Of a DNA stretch of 64,000 nucleotides, positions 31,261-60,236 are shown in pieces. The notes below the pieces were generated by a model that saw only the letters and a program-made list of their open reading frames with translations, did no database searches and was not told the DNA's origin. The first letter of the stretch is position 1, and every line of letters begins with the position of its first letter. A program made the position numbers and the translations under genes. Origin of the DNA: Erysipelotrichaceae bacterium (lineage in GTDB: Bacteria > Bacillota_I > Bacilli_A > Acholeplasmatales > Anaeroplasmataceae); assembly GCA_015059145.1 (NCBI GenBank), contig SVAZ01000007.1:1-64000 (forward strand), written 5' to 3'.

Positions 31261-31480
31261 AAAATAAAAAATCGTCCTATACAAAGGACGATATTATCGC
31301 GGTACCACCTTAATTTTAGAAATAAATTCTAACACCTCAAAATCCTTAACGCGGAAAACGGAATAGCATTTCCTCTATTCATCTCCAAAGGTAGTAACAT
31401 ATATTCTATCTAGATATTTTCACCAAGCATATCCTCTCTAAAAGAATCAAATATATATCTTATCCTTTTTCATCAATTAT
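31261..31480 (-). promoter_or_regulatory. T-box riboswitch controlling thrS
   Basis: The minus strand carries the T-box sequence AAGGTGGTACCGCG (31311-31298) followed by a terminator hairpin (ATCGTCCT / AGGACGAT, then TTTTTTATTTT). Upstream is a Stem I-like region in which ACT-ACC (31395-31390), both Thr codons, lies on the 3' side, a suitable specifier position. Uncharged tRNA-Thr would favour the antiterminator and thrS transcription. Confidence 0.92.
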
Positions 31481-31486
31481 GTTTTA

Positions 31487-54505: not shown

Positions 54506-55501
54506 ATGCGTATTATTTCAGGAATTCAACCTAGTGGAAATATAACATTAGGTAATTATTTAGGAGCTGTTAAAAACTTTGTAAAGCTTCAAGACAAGGA
54601 GGATATTACTGACTTCTTAGTTTTTGTTGCTGATTTACATGCTATAACTGTTCCACAGGATAAAGCTGAGCTTAGAAAAAATATCAAGTCATTAGTATCT
54701 ATTTATTTAGCTTGTGGATTAAATCCAGAAAAGGTTAAAATATTCATTCAATCAGAGGTCCCTGCTCATGCACAAATCGGTTGGGTATTACAATGTAACG
54801 GCTACATAGGTGAATTAGAAAGAATGACTCAATATAAGGATAAAAAGGAGCGTCAGGTTGCTGGTGTATCAGTTGGTCTTCTAACATATCCTTCTTTAAT
54901 GGCTGGTGATATTCTTCTTTATGATGCTGATATGGTTCCTACTGGATTAGATCAAAAGCAGCATTTAGAATTAACACGAGACTTAGCTGAAAGATTTAAC
55001 AATAAATATGGTGAAACATTTGTTGTTCCTACACCATTTATTCCAGAGGCCGGAGCTAAAATCATGTCATTAACTGAGCCAACTAAGAAAATGAGTAAAT
55101 CAGACCCTAATCCAAAGGCTTACATTTCTTTATTAGATGATATTAATGTTATTAAAAAGAAAATCAAATCAGCTGTTACTGATAGTGATGGTACTATCAA
55201 ATATGATATTGATAACAAACCAGGTATATCAAATTTATTAACTATTCTTTCTTGTATAACTAATACTTCTATTAAGGATTTAGAGGCAAAATATAAGGAT
55301 TCTAATTATGCTACATTTAAAGAGGATGTAGCCAATGCAGTAGCTAATGAAATTATGCCAATTCAAGAAAAATATAATGAATTAATAAATTCTAAATATT
55401 TAGATGAGGTTTTAGACCAAGGTAGAGATTATGCTAATTATTTAGCAAACAAAAAGCTTAATAAAATCTATAATAAAATTGGCTTAGGTAGAAAAAGATA
55501 A
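54506..55501 (+). CDS. trpS: Tryptophanyl-tRNA synthetase
   Basis: 331 aa class I synthetase. Opening SGIQPSGNITLGNYLGA (HIGH-equivalent), VADLHAIT, LMAGDILLYDADMVPTGLDQ cited in part, and KMSKSDPN (KMSKS). SD ACGAGGAGG. Controlled by tRNA-Trp charging through the T-box. Confidence 0.97.
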   Translation: MRIISGIQPSGNITLGNYLGAVKNFVKLQDKEDITDFLVFVADLHAITVPQDKAELRKNIKSLVSIYLACGLNPEKVKIFIQSEVPAHAQIGWVLQCNGYIGELERMTQYKDKKERQVAGVSVGLLTYPSLMAGDILLYDADMVPTGLDQKQHLELTRDLAERFNNKYGETFVVPTPFIPEAGAKIMSLTEPTKKMSKSDPNPKAYISLLDDINVIKKKIKSAVTDSDGTIKYDIDNKPGISNLLTILSCITNTSIKDLEAKYKDSNYATFKEDVANAVANEIMPIQEKYNELINSKYLDEVLDQGRDYANYLANKKLNKIYNKIGLGRKR

Positions 55502-55507
55502 TAAAAA

Positions 55508-55541
55508 TGAAAAGAGGCGAAATTAATTTTTCGCCTCTTTA
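55508..55541. terminator. Bidirectional terminator between trpS and the ECF S gene
   Basis: AAAGAGGCGAAA / TTTCGCCTCTTT arms with flanking A and T runs; the minus-strand gene ends inside it. Confidence 0.87.
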
Positions 55542-56038
55542 TTCATTATATTATTTAAAACATTTCTACATGGCTTATATAACCATAAAATAGTAATAAA
55601 GCTAGATGCTGCTAAAATTATTTCATATATGATATCAGCAATAAAATAATCTAGTGCATTTACATCTAATATTATTACATTTGGTATAATAAATAGCCAA
55701 GAATATATAAAGGAAAATAAAATACCCATTAATGCTAATAATAGTGGGGATTCACATTTTTTTAACAAGCTACAAACAACTATAGGAATAATCATCCATC
55801 CAATTAGCATAAACGGAAAATACGCTATATTAAAGCTAGCCATAAATAGATTATCTAATATTGTGTGAATAATTACTATTAAGGATGTTCTTATAAATCC
55901 TAATGCTTTTGAGTATAAAACCATTAAAAAAACTGTCAATTGAACATTAGGTAAAAAGCTTAAAAGCTGCTCCTGCGCAAATAACAATGCAGCTAATACA
56001 GCAATTATAGCCATATCCTTAACTGTAATTCTATGCAT
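55523..56038 (-). CDS. ECF transporter S component, probable B12-related vitamin uptake
   Basis: 171 aa with five to six helices and the S-component N-terminal pattern (ITVKDMAIIAVLAALLFAQE) plus a conserved internal polar turn (TILDNLF). It starts inside the last codons of the DUF4430 gene (ATGCATAG overlap), so both are made from one message under the cobalamin riboswitch. By family logic it would capture cobalamin or a precursor and dock on a shared ECF module elsewhere in the genome, like CbrT. Substrate is inferred from the riboswitch. Confidence 0.78.
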   Translation of the reverse strand: MHRITVKDMAIIAVLAALLFAQEQLLSFLPNVQLTVFLMVLYSKALGFIRTSLIVIIHTILDNLFMASFNIAYFPFMLIGWMIIPIVVCSLLKKCESPLLLALMGILFSFIYSWLFIIPNVIILDVNALDYFIADIIYEIILAASSFITILWLYKPCRNVLNNIMNKEAKN

Positions 56039-56474
56039 ACATATTTTCTGTAATTCTTAAAGAAATAATAGTACCATCCTCAAACCTTATATCAGATATT
56101 CCTACATCACTCATTTTATCATCTACATAAACACAAATAAATGTAGACCAATCATCTGGAGTTTGATAGCCCTCAATATCCATAAGCATTCCACCTTCGA
56201 ATACTACATCATCAAACCTTTCTGTGATTAAGCCCTCTAAAGTATCTCCAGAGGCAAACTTTATTCTTTTTTCCTCTATAATGTCACCATCAAGATCAAC
56301 AAGTTCAATCTCGATTTTTCCATCATATTTAGCTTGATAATTATTATTAATCAAAATAATACAAGCTACTAATATCACCACGGCAACAATTGATGATATG
56401 ATGGCAATAAGCTTTCTTTGCTTCATAATTTTTTCTATTCTTATAATACTCCAATCGTCCTCAGCAACCTTCAT
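56031..56474 (-). CDS. Membrane-anchored DUF4430 protein, candidate extracellular B12-binding subunit
   Basis: 147 aa. N-terminal cytoplasmic stretch, one helix (about 22-43), then a DUF4430-type beta domain (about 52-147; LVDLDGDIIEEKRIKF, GDTLEGLI, GYQTPDDWSTFICVYVDDK). DUF4430 is the fold of the C-terminal domain of intrinsic factor and transcobalamin, whose bacterial members occur in Firmicutes. Context (cobalamin riboswitch before, ECF S component after) points to surface B12 capture. Start is uncertain: GGAGG lies 15 bases before the ATG, separated by a GGAT-TCT-ATCC hairpin. Confidence 0.78.
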   Translation of the reverse strand: MKVAEDDWSIIRIEKIMKQRKLIAIISSIVAVVILVACIILINNNYQAKYDGKIEIELVDLDGDIIEEKRIKFASGDTLEGLITERFDDVVFEGGMLMDIEGYQTPDDWSTFICVYVDDKMSDVGISDIRFEDGTIISLRITENMYA

Positions 56475-56507
56475 ATTTAAGGATAGAATCCTCCTATTTT
56501 TTTATAA

Positions 56508-56655
56508 TTTTAGGCAAGTCTCCTGGCTTAGCTTCATCCTACTTTCACCTTCTCAGTTTCCCAATGGTTATCGATTTCGTCCGCCTTACAGTTGCTGGGA
56601 CAGTCCAAGACTTTCACTTGTGTTCCTTATTAAAGCTATCGCTAGCTACCTAAAA
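56508..56655 (-). promoter_or_regulatory. Cobalamin (B12) riboswitch
   Basis: On the minus strand the B12-box end AAGCCAGGAGACTTGCC and the core segment GACTGTCCCAGCAACTGTAA are near-textbook. Closing stem P1 is TTTTAGG (5') with CCTAAAA (3'). It begins 10 bases after the ygiQ stop and ends about 35 bases before the DUF4430 gene. No terminator follows; the downstream AGGAGGATTCTATCCT could hide the SD, so control is probably translational. Confidence 0.95.
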
Positions 56656-56664
56656 ATAATATCC

Positions 56665-58518
56665 TTACTTCCTTTTATAATTTGTTTTCTTATAATTATT
56701 GTTCTTATTAAATGCTTGAGTATTATTACCCCTTGGCTTTATTAAGCACTTCTTATCATATCCAATCAAATCCTTACGATTTGCTTTAACTAAAGCCTCA
56801 TATACCAAATCATAATTCTGTGGTAATTTATATTGCATTAAAGCTCTTTGCATTGCCTTTTCATGTGGATCACGTGGAACATACACGCTTTCATTATTAA
56901 ACGGATCAATACCTGTATAATACATACATGTTGAGGCAGTGCCTGGTGTCGGGTAAAAATCCTGAACCTGCTCAGGCATATGCCCAGTATCTCTTAAATA
57001 TTCAGCCAAATTAATAGCTGCATCTAATGTTGAGCCTGGATGACTACTCATTAAATAAGGTACTAAAAATTGATTCATATCATGCTTTTTATTTAAATCC
57101 TGATATTCCTTAACAAACTTATCATATAGCTCTCTAGATGGCTTACCCATTCTAACTAAAACTCTATCATCAATATGCTCTGGTGCTACCTTCAATTGCC
57201 CTGAAATATGATATTTAACTAATTCATTAAAGAATTCCTTATTCTTATCATACATAATATAATCATATCTTAAGCCGGAACGAACAAATACCTTTTTAAT
57301 TCCAGGAAGCTTTCTTGCTTCTCTTAAAATATCTAAATAATCAGTATGATCAACCTCTAAATTCTTACATGGATCATACCCTATACATTCTCTATGGGTA
57401 CATACACCATTTTTCATTTGCTTACCACAAGCTGGATGATAAAAGTTTGCAGTTGGTCCACCAATATCATGGACATATCCTTTAAAATTCTTATCCTCGC
57501 TTATGATTTTAATTTCATCTAATATAGAATCCTTACTTCTAGATTGAATGATTCTTCCTTGATGCATTGTAAGTGCACAGAAATGACAACCTCCATAGCA
57601 TCCTCTATTAGAAATAACAGAAAACTTAACCTCATCTATCGCAGGCACATGACCTTGTGCCTCAATAAGTGGATGACACTGTCTCATATAAGGTAGTGCA
57701 TATGTTGCATCCATTTCCTCTCTTGATAATGGAAACTCAGGTGGATTTTGAACAACAAATACATTTCTATATTTTTCAACTAATGTCTTACCAGTAAAGG
57801 CATCAGTGTTTTTATATTGAATTTGAAATGATTTAACATAATTCATTTTATCGGCTAAAACCTCATCATAAGATGGTAGCATTACAGCATCATTAGGTAA
57901 CAAAGACTCATCCTTAGTTTTCCAAACAGAATTTCTTATATAAATAATATCCTTAACATCTAAACCAGAATCTAAGGCATCAGCAACCTGAACTATAGTT
58001 TTTTCTCCCATTCCATAAAGTAATAAATCAGCTTTAGAATCTAATAATATAGATCTTCTAACAGAATTATCCCAATAATCATAATGGTTTAATCTTCTTA
58101 AAGAAGCCTCAATACCGCCAATAATGATTGGTGTATCAGGATAAAGCTCTCTTAGCTTAGATGAATATCTAATTAAAGCTCTATCCGGTCTTTTCCCCAT
58201 AACTCCACCAGGAGTATAATAATCCTTGTTTCTTCTTCTTTTAGAAACAGTATAATGATCAACCATCGAATCAATATTACCAGCACACACTAAAAATCCA
58301 AGTCTAGGCTTACCAAACAATTTAAACGGCTTAGGATTATTAATATCCGGTTGAGATACAATACATACCTTATAGCCAAAATTTTCTAACGTTCTAGAAA
58401 TTATGGCAGGCCCAAAGGATGGATGATCAATGTAAGCATCTCCAATAATATATACAAAGTCTGGCTGCTCCCAGCCATATTCCTTCATTTCCTCTATTGT
58501 AATCGGTAAAAATGGCAT
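56665..58518 (-). CDS. ygiQ: YgiQ family radical SAM protein (UPF0313)
   Basis: 617 aa from the ATG behind GGAGGTAATAAT. N-terminal half with [13 protein letters not shown] and [20 protein letters not shown], cluster motif CYGGCHFC (about 330), then [10 protein letters not shown], a Cys-rich insert ([21 protein letters not shown] from about 370) and [18 protein letters not shown]. All are hallmarks of this widespread but uncharacterised family. The Asn/Lys-rich C-terminus is low complexity. Confidence 0.9.
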
Positions 58519-58622
58519 ATTATTACCTCCATTCCAAGACATTTTATCATATTTTATATTAAACTTCCACCAAAAGCCTTTTATTTATGCTAAAATAATA
58601 AAAGTAAAAAGGAATGATTATT

Positions 58623-60236
58623 ATGAAAAATCTATTAATAGGCATAAATGCTAAATATATACATCCAAATCTAGCAATTAGATTATTAAAAAAGAATACT
58701 AGCTATGAGGTAGATATTAAAGAATTTACTATTAAGGATAATTATTTAGATGTAGTGAATTATATTCTTAATAATAACTATTCTACTGTCGGTTTTTCTT
58801 GTTACATATGGAATATAGAATTTATTAAAAATATACTAAATGAAATTAAAGATAAAAACATCATTATAATCTTAGGTGGACCTGAGGTAAGCTATAACGC
58901 TAATTATTATTTAGAAAATGGTTTAGCTAGCTTCATCATCAAAAATGAAGGTGAGGAAGCCTATGATTTATTACTTAAGCATTTAGATAACAAGATAAAT
59001 ATTTCAAATGTCCCAAACCTATATCATAAAAATGGTTATACATTTGATAAGCTTGTAGATTTAAATAATGCTAAAATGGCATATGATTTATTAGATGATG
59101 TTAAAAATAAAATAGTATATTTAGAAACATCTAGGGGTTGCCCATATAAATGTGGATACTGTATGGCTAGCCTAGATAATAAGGTTAGATTTTTCAACAT
59201 AGAGGAAATAAAAAAGCAAATACTTCTTCTACAAAATAAAGGCGCAAGAATTTTTAAATTTCTTGATAGAACATTTAATGCTAATAAAAATAACTTTATC
59301 AGTCTTATAGATTTCATAATTGAAAATCATAATCCTAATAATTCATTTCAATTTGAAATAACAGGAGATTTATTATCTACAGATATAATCGAATATATTA
59401 ATAAAAAAGCACCAAAAAATTTATTTAGATTTGAAATAGGCATACAATCTACTAATATTGAGTCTAATTTAAGTGTAGGAAGAATTCAAAATAATGAAAA
59501 GCTATTTAATAATATAAAATTAATTCAAGATGCCAACATCATAGATCTTCATTTAGATTTAATCGCAGGCCTTCCTTTTGAGGATTATAAATCATTTGAA
59601 AACACATTTAATGAGGTATTATCATTAAAGCCAAAGGAATTACAATTAGGCTTTCTAAAGCTATTATATGGTACTAGTCTTTATAAGGAAGCAAATAAAT
59701 ATGGTTATAGATGGAGTGATAAAGCACCTTATGAAATAATTAAAAATGATTTTATGTCTGAAGATGATATCAAGCATATTCATATTGCAGAGGATGCCTT
59801 TGAAGCCTATTACAATAAGGGTATAATGCCAAGCTCTATGTTATTAATTATTACAAATGAAGAAAGTCCTTTTAATTTCTTCCATGATTTAGGATTAACG
59901 AATTTTAAAGGAAAAGGCTTAGAAAGCTTATTTAAAGCAATAGATGATTTTGTATCAAGCAAAGATTATTATACAGAATTTCATAGAGCTATAATATTAG
60001 ATTATTTGAAATACTTTAATCTTAAACCAAAGGCATGGTGGAAGGAATCCTGCTCACCAAAGGAAAAAAATAATATAATTAGAGAATTATATGAAAAAAG
60101 CATCTTTGACTTATCTCTTAATGATTTGTATAAGCATTCACTAGTAATAAGCTTAAATGAATATTATATAATTGCAATTTATAAAGAGAATTATAAAAAT
60201 ATATATGAAATAAGAAAAGAGGAACTAGTCCGTTAG
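58623..60236 (+). CDS. B12-binding-domain radical SAM protein (DUF4080 type)
   Basis: 537 aa from the ATG 9 bases after AAGGA. N-terminal B12-binding-like Rossmann domain (about 1-130, with GFSCYIWN and IILGGPEVSYNA), radical SAM cluster CPYKCGYC (about residue 175-182), and a C-terminal DUF4080-type part (YRWSDKAPYEI, FHRAIILDYLKYF). The first domain lacks an obvious DxHxxG, usual for this subgroup. It faces the B12 cassette and may use the cofactor; substrate unknown. The last codons double as the terminator stem. Confidence 0.85.
   Translation: MKNLLIGINAKYIHPNLAIRLLKKNTSYEVDIKEFTIKDNYLDVVNYILNNNYSTVGFSCYIWNIEFIKNILNEIKDKNIIIILGGPEVSYNANYYLENGLASFIIKNEGEEAYDLLLKHLDNKINISNVPNLYHKNGYTFDKLVDLNNAKMAYDLLDDVKNKIVYLETSRGCPYKCGYCMASLDNKVRFFNIEEIKKQILLLQNKGARIFKFLDRTFNANKNNFISLIDFIIENHNPNNSFQFEITGDLLSTDIIEYINKKAPKNLFRFEIGIQSTNIESNLSVGRIQNNEKLFNNIKLIQDANIIDLHLDLIAGLPFEDYKSFENTFNEVLSLKPKELQLGFLKLLYGTSLYKEANKYGYRWSDKAPYEIIKNDFMSEDDIKHIHIAEDAFEAYYNKGIMPSSMLLIITNEESPFNFFHDLGLTNFKGKGLESLFKAIDDFVSSKDYYTEFHRAIILDYLKYFNLKPKAWWKESCSPKEKNNIIRELYEKSIFDLSLNDLYKHSLVISLNEYYIIAIYKENYKNIYEIRKEELVR

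Follow-up and report, generated by a model that had tools for sequence, protein, structure and literature searches.

ECF-CbrT of Lactobacillus delbrueckii is a vitamin B12 transporter of solved structure (6FNP; PMC5997447), and CbrT needs no partner in vitro either to bind B12 (Kd ~9 nM) or to support its transport (PMC5997447). The structure of BtuM has also been published (PMC6072759). Among the B12 carriers of vertebrates, human transcobalamin consists of alpha and beta domains that join only when cobalamin is present, while its isolated beta domain binds cyanocobalamin in crystals (PMC5599065), and DUF4430 has already been described in print as the C-terminal domain of transcobalamins (PMC4350170). 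Many gut bacteria need B12 and have no recognised importer, and a survey of human gut genomes called the identification of such transporters an open problem (PMC6593275).

The window analysed here, a stretch of 64,000 nucleotides from an Erysipelotrichaceae bacterium, contains a minus-strand cassette in which a cobalamin riboswitch is followed by a gene for an anchored DUF4430 protein and then by a gene for an ECF S component. The case that this cassette serves B12 uptake is strong. That it is a scavenging system, in which the DUF4430 protein captures B12 at the surface and hands it over to the S component for import, is the likely explanation, with B12 binding by the DUF4430 protein and the transfer itself being inferred. 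The riboswitch, the folds, the conserved pairing, the gene fusion, the motor genes and the lack of a BtuC-type permease are shown computationally. CbrT and the identity of DUF4430 as the transcobalamin C-terminal domain were known previously; the combination, in which an ECF transporter for B12 has an outer partner of the transcobalamin type, appears to be new. A search of the open-access literature, which reached few subscription journals, turned up no publication that connects ECF transporters with DUF4430 or with transcobalamin-like proteins.

Cassette layout and the proteins it encodes

Table 1. Features of the cassette and its surroundings, with positions in the window.
Feature	Position	Strand	Basis
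Cobalamin riboswitch aptamer (RF00174), cassette leader	56496-56668	minus	95.2 bits
DUF4430 protein, anchored by a single helix	56031-56474 (start possibly 56426)	minus	PF14478
CbrT-like ECF S component	55523-56038	minus	family profile and fold
Terminator-like stem, two-way	55511-55540	both	12-pair stem, T tails on either side
ygiQ-type radical SAM gene	56665-58542	minus	TIGR03904, 837 bits (cut-off 462)
B12-binding radical SAM protein (DUF4080)	58614-60236	plus	PF02310 (51.3 bits), PF04055, PF13311

The leader matches the cobalamin riboswitch model over its full length (model positions 1-189; cut-off 31.5 bits, E 2e-22), which identifies the aptamer, while cobalamin binding and control of the two genes are inferred from the RNA class. 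The predicted fold of the leader was not more stable than those of shuffled sequences, and nothing about the expression platform is concluded from it. The DUF4430 reading frame begins 21 bases past the aptamer if the ATG at residue 1 is used; the start is uncertain and might instead be residue 17, where most relatives begin. This frame (147 codons) shares 8 bases with that of the S component (171 codons). Downstream, the convergent trpS gene ends at 55501 and has the terminator-like stem in common with the cassette. Upstream, the ygiQ-type gene ends at the riboswitch and lies on the same strand, so read-through from ygiQ into the cassette is possible. The sequence-only reading, in which the locus was taken to consist of a riboswitch, a single-helix DUF4430 protein, an overlapping ECF S component and nothing else, held in all parts, the limits being set by convergent trpS with its stem on one side and by the end of ygiQ on the other.

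A ygiQ-type gene was also observed before a lone S gene in a near relative (G090, L075:5020-6567) and before a DUF4430-S pair in a distant family (G488, L206:2261-4114). Elsewhere in the window, a T-box leader is found at 31281-31482 on the minus strand (113.5 bits).

The DUF4430 protein, 147 residues long, passes the PF14478 cut-off (25.3 bits against 23.8). Its single N-terminal helix is indicated by a hydropathy peak at residues 22-42 and spans residues 3-45 in a structure model, built from eight sequences (pLDDT 85.5), that consists of this long helix and a compact beta domain. When the model was compared with the PDB using Foldseek, the best 19 matches (E 1.8e-5 to 1.4e-3) were all transcobalamin, intrinsic factor, haptocorrin or the DUF4430 protein 3u7z, and the first match of any other kind followed at E 0.016. 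PDB searches with single sequences found nothing. A profile of 45 DUF4430 domains from cassette loci, using sequence alone, matched 3u7z at 4e-14 and transcobalamin-2 at 1.8e-4, with haptocorrin and intrinsic factor ranking next; overall sequence identity to transcobalamin is low. The claimed likeness to the C-terminal domain of intrinsic factor and transcobalamin was thus upheld by both methods. The model predicts a transcobalamin beta-domain fold; that the domain binds cobalamin is inferred, in the absence of binding data and of a modelled ligand. Given that cyanocobalamin is bound by the beta domain of transcobalamin in isolation, such a domain could plausibly hold B12 on its own. Lack of a cobalamin-sized pocket had been named as an outcome that would refute the reading; the beta-domain fold was found, and the site in the window protein has not been modelled with ligand.

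The S protein (171 residues, six helices) has no Pfam match. A profile of 30 relatives matched chain A of ECF-CbrT (6fnp_A) at 2.7e-6 and nothing else below 0.7. Its structure model (pLDDT 89) has the ECF S fold, with TM scores of 0.74-0.76 to the best solved S components (4huq_S); the Foldseek E-values were weak (0.055) and the nearest solved chains were S components for other vitamins. The crystal chain of CbrT was absent from these fold matches, which may be because CbrT was solved in a toppled, occluded state. The six-helix S fold and the CbrT profile match establish a CbrT-type ECF S component, whereas ATP-driven cobalamin transport by it is inferred. A proposed likeness to both CbrT and BtuM held for CbrT only, as the S-family profile retrieved no BtuM chain up to E 10 and a relation to BtuM was not supported.

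Statements about the rest of the genome rest on family searches in an assembly that is 94% complete, so absences are not final. The cassette riboswitch is the sole cobalamin riboswitch found in the 1.43-Mb genome, and one DUF4430 gene was found. The ecfA1-ecfA2-ecfT operon of a shared ECF motor is present (at C12). No FecCD permease was found in the family search, from which it was concluded that the genome has no BtuC. Two genes encode B12-binding domains: the radical SAM gene in the window and a gene on another contig for a MetH-like enzyme with homocysteine methyltransferase, pterin-binding and both B12 domains. The radical SAM gene had been proposed as a likely consumer of the imported vitamin. 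The gene is real, but it is encoded on the other strand and does not belong to the cassette, and its product is a possible B12 user; the MetH-like enzyme is instead the surest consumer in this genome.

Conservation of the pair and its longer forms in relatives

Relatives of the S component are present in 71 of 160 genomes of the order and in 127 of 395 sampled genomes of the class, representing 76 genera; those with names belong to Anaeroplasma, Avacholeplasma, Holdemanella, Floccifex and other Acholeplasmatales or Erysipelotrichaceae. At the 69 order loci other than that of the window, a DUF4430 gene is found at 65, a cobalamin riboswitch upstream on the same strand at 47, a long DUF4430 protein at 41 and a single DUF4430-S frame at eight. 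Class loci outside the order show the same association within the fetched stretch (DUF4430 gene at 78/80, cobalamin riboswitch at 67/80), the DUF4430 gene of one locus (L222) being ~2.5 kb off. In the reverse direction, 101 of the 139 DUF4430 matches in the class sample are no more than 4.5 kb from an S-family gene. Genomes carry about one cobalamin riboswitch each, and chance placement at this position was estimated in well under 1% of genomes. Since the genomes are related, the locus counts are not independent events.

The reading would also have been refuted if such pairs occurred mostly behind other riboswitches. They are instead found mostly behind cobalamin riboswitches, in the order and in the class, and none of another kind was found upstream in the order loci. 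Lysine riboswitches, present at many order loci, at first resembled this refuting outcome and were ruled out by position, being downstream of the cassette and before the next gene, whereas the cobalamin riboswitch precedes the cassette. A second scan with a lax threshold, covering ten order loci that lack a cobalamin riboswitch, detected no riboswitch of any class. One near relative is an exception to the pairing: in G090 (L075) the S gene follows ygiQ, with neither a DUF4430 gene nor a riboswitch.

The eight DUF4430-S fusions of the order (L033-L040, in G098, G110, G099, G140, G108, G089, G141 and G103) are ~380 codons long, one being cut by a contig end, and these genomes keep a separate long DUF4430 lipoprotein upstream. 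In those genomes, as the fusions demonstrate, a ratio of one DUF4430 domain to one S component can work. Neighbouring genes offer support for B12 uptake that does not depend on the riboswitch: G313 (L224) has, in this order, metH, a toroid protein, DUF4430 and the CbrT orthologue, and in G250 (L162) genes for a B12-binding subunit and MutL come after the S gene, an arrangement known from glutamate mutase operons.

Several variants were observed among these loci. In G144, a 197-residue lipoprotein frame without a clear DUF4430 match (L076:2468-3061) occupies the place of the small DUF4430 gene, behind a cobalamin riboswitch and before the S gene, and could be a diverged DUF4430 form. The S-family genes of G331 (L211), G337, G267, G343 and G498 are interrupted by several TGA codons, a pattern expected where TGA is read as tryptophan. 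In G167 (L222), a DUF4430 gene, an EcfT-like gene, a duplicated EcfA-like gene and the S-family gene stand in a row, which makes this an ECF system that encodes its motor as well.

In many relatives, a lipoprotein gene is found between the riboswitch and the small DUF4430 gene. These lipoproteins, 40 of 42 of which have a lipobox-like motif, consist of one to three DUF4430 domains followed by ~260 residues. This second domain has no direct PDB match; an hhalign comparison (probability 97.9, E 3.8e-13) relates it to toroid proteins in family f17, which precede the DUF4430 and CbrT genes and whose repeats match squalene-hopene cyclase, of the alpha/alpha-toroid type. CbrT orthologues in f17 themselves have DUF4430 and toroid genes upstream. 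The alpha domain of transcobalamin is a barrel of the same general type. Because the second domain is linked to it only through the f17 proteins, the equation of the two is indirect; with that reservation for the alpha half, both parts of a transcobalamin appear to be present in relatives, either in reversed order or on separate proteins. An alpha-type domain was sought in the window genome and not found, leaving the beta half only, and that genome is without a DUF4430-toroid lipoprotein. The description of the cassette as a compact system is amended accordingly: it represents the short version of a more extensive system, in which such a lipoprotein is often included.

Other domain arrangements were seen as well. 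Lipoproteins of families f24 and f16 behind a cobalamin riboswitch carry two or three DUF4430 domains in tandem (L171:2145-4049, L178:2144-4054, L147:2001-3392). In family f19, lipoproteins placed between the riboswitch and the small DUF4430 gene seemingly have the toroid-type domain alone, without DUF4430 (L162:3256-4119, L165:1900-2760, L167:1906-2799).

Proposed mechanism and rival explanations

In the preferred explanation, low cellular B12 would lead the riboswitch to permit expression of both genes, as inferred from the RNA class. The anchored DUF4430 domain would hold B12 on its open face, as the isolated transcobalamin beta domain does, and an adjacent, outward-facing S component would take the vitamin over and import it, powered by the shared EcfA1-EcfA2-EcfT motor, whose genes are found in another part of the genome. 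Transcobalamin encloses its ligand with the alpha domain; in the cassette, this role may fall to the S component's own cavity. Because CbrT alone binds and transports B12, and because the G090 S component occurs without a DUF4430 gene or riboswitch, the partner is more likely an aid to capture than an essential subunit, and probably improves capture at very low B12. The proposal of the sequence-only reading that the DUF4430 protein captures B12 and passes it on, as an ECF counterpart of BtuF, is therefore supported as to uptake, while binding by DUF4430 and hand-over remain inference.

The rival that survives best, although it is unlikely, is that the S component alone captures and imports B12, and that DUF4430 is a lid, stabiliser or orientation partner that does not bind free B12 and might, for example, stabilise the S component while it has no substrate or hold it in its outward orientation. 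In its favor, CbrT requires no other protein for transport or for binding in the nanomolar range, the apo form of CbrT is unstable when purified (PMC5997447), the fusions and tight coupling would also fit a structural subunit, and the G090 S component lacks a DUF4430 partner. Against it, the fold of the DUF4430 domain is that of a domain dedicated to B12 binding, and relatives possess a further DUF4430 protein, a lipoprotein separate from the S component.

There is much less reason to favor a second rival, in which the cassette mainly imports not B12 itself but one of its precursors or a different cobamide (cobinamide, pseudo-B12). The affinity of CbrT for cobinamide is only about fourfold lower than that for B12 (PMC5997447), and the transcobalamin beta domain binds cobinamide as well (PMC5599065). 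However, precursor salvage would need late biosynthesis genes; the present evidence does not separate these substrates. A third possibility, in which the substrate of the S component is cobalt or some unrelated vitamin and the riboswitch link is indirect or accidental, might be suggested by the lack of a Pfam match for the S protein and by nearest solved chains that serve other vitamins, but is all but excluded by the recurrence of the cobalamin riboswitch upstream in genomes with about one each, by CbrT being the sole significant match of the S profile, and by some cassettes that adjoin B12-dependent enzymes.

Capture by DUF4430 and hand-over to the S component, if true, would give ECF transporters, which are usually described as needing no outer binding protein, such a protein. 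The cassette would provide many genera with a B12 importer, assign to DUF4430 proteins a function that can be tested, and connect the B12 carriers of vertebrates with bacterial uptake, so that the origin of these carriers could be tested. A bolder reading, which could as readily prove wrong as right, is that in bacteria of this class a capture system of the transcobalamin and intrinsic factor type is coupled to CbrT-type ECF transporters and shares ancestry with the animal carriers, occurring as beta and alpha domains in reversed order on a lipoprotein, as domains split over two proteins, or as the beta domain alone, anchored and even fused to the S component.

Comparison with known systems

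ECF-CbrT (6FNP) has in common with the cassette its S-component family, by profile, and the shared type of ECF motor. It is distant in sequence and was described and assayed without a partner, whereas the cassette has a riboswitch and an overlapping DUF4430 gene. The likeness to BtuF-BtuCD lies in a proposed outer binding protein that would feed a B12 ABC importer; fold and transporter class are different, as the cassette has the DUF4430 fold, no FecCD permease was found in the genome, and equivalence to BtuF was not met. BtuG, BtuH and BtuJ of Bacteroides are likewise surface B12-binding aids to uptake in gut bacteria (PMC6143338, PMC10404256, PMC12751083), but these lipoproteins serve the outer-membrane protein BtuB, and BtuJ is a DUF4465 protein, not DUF4430.

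The closest solved bacterial relative of the outer domain is the DUF4430 protein RUMGNA_00854 of Ruminococcus gnavus (PDB 3u7z), whose deposition describes it as putatively metal-binding. Transcobalamin, intrinsic factor and haptocorrin share with the cassette protein the predicted beta-domain fold and the sequence profile match. In the vertebrate carriers, alpha is joined to beta, whereas no alpha domain was found in the window genome and likeness over the whole protein was not met. In relatives of the cassette, the apparent alpha domain follows the beta domain, while in the vertebrate carriers it precedes it, and, unlike those carriers, the DUF4430 protein of the cassette is predicted to be anchored in the membrane beside a transporter.
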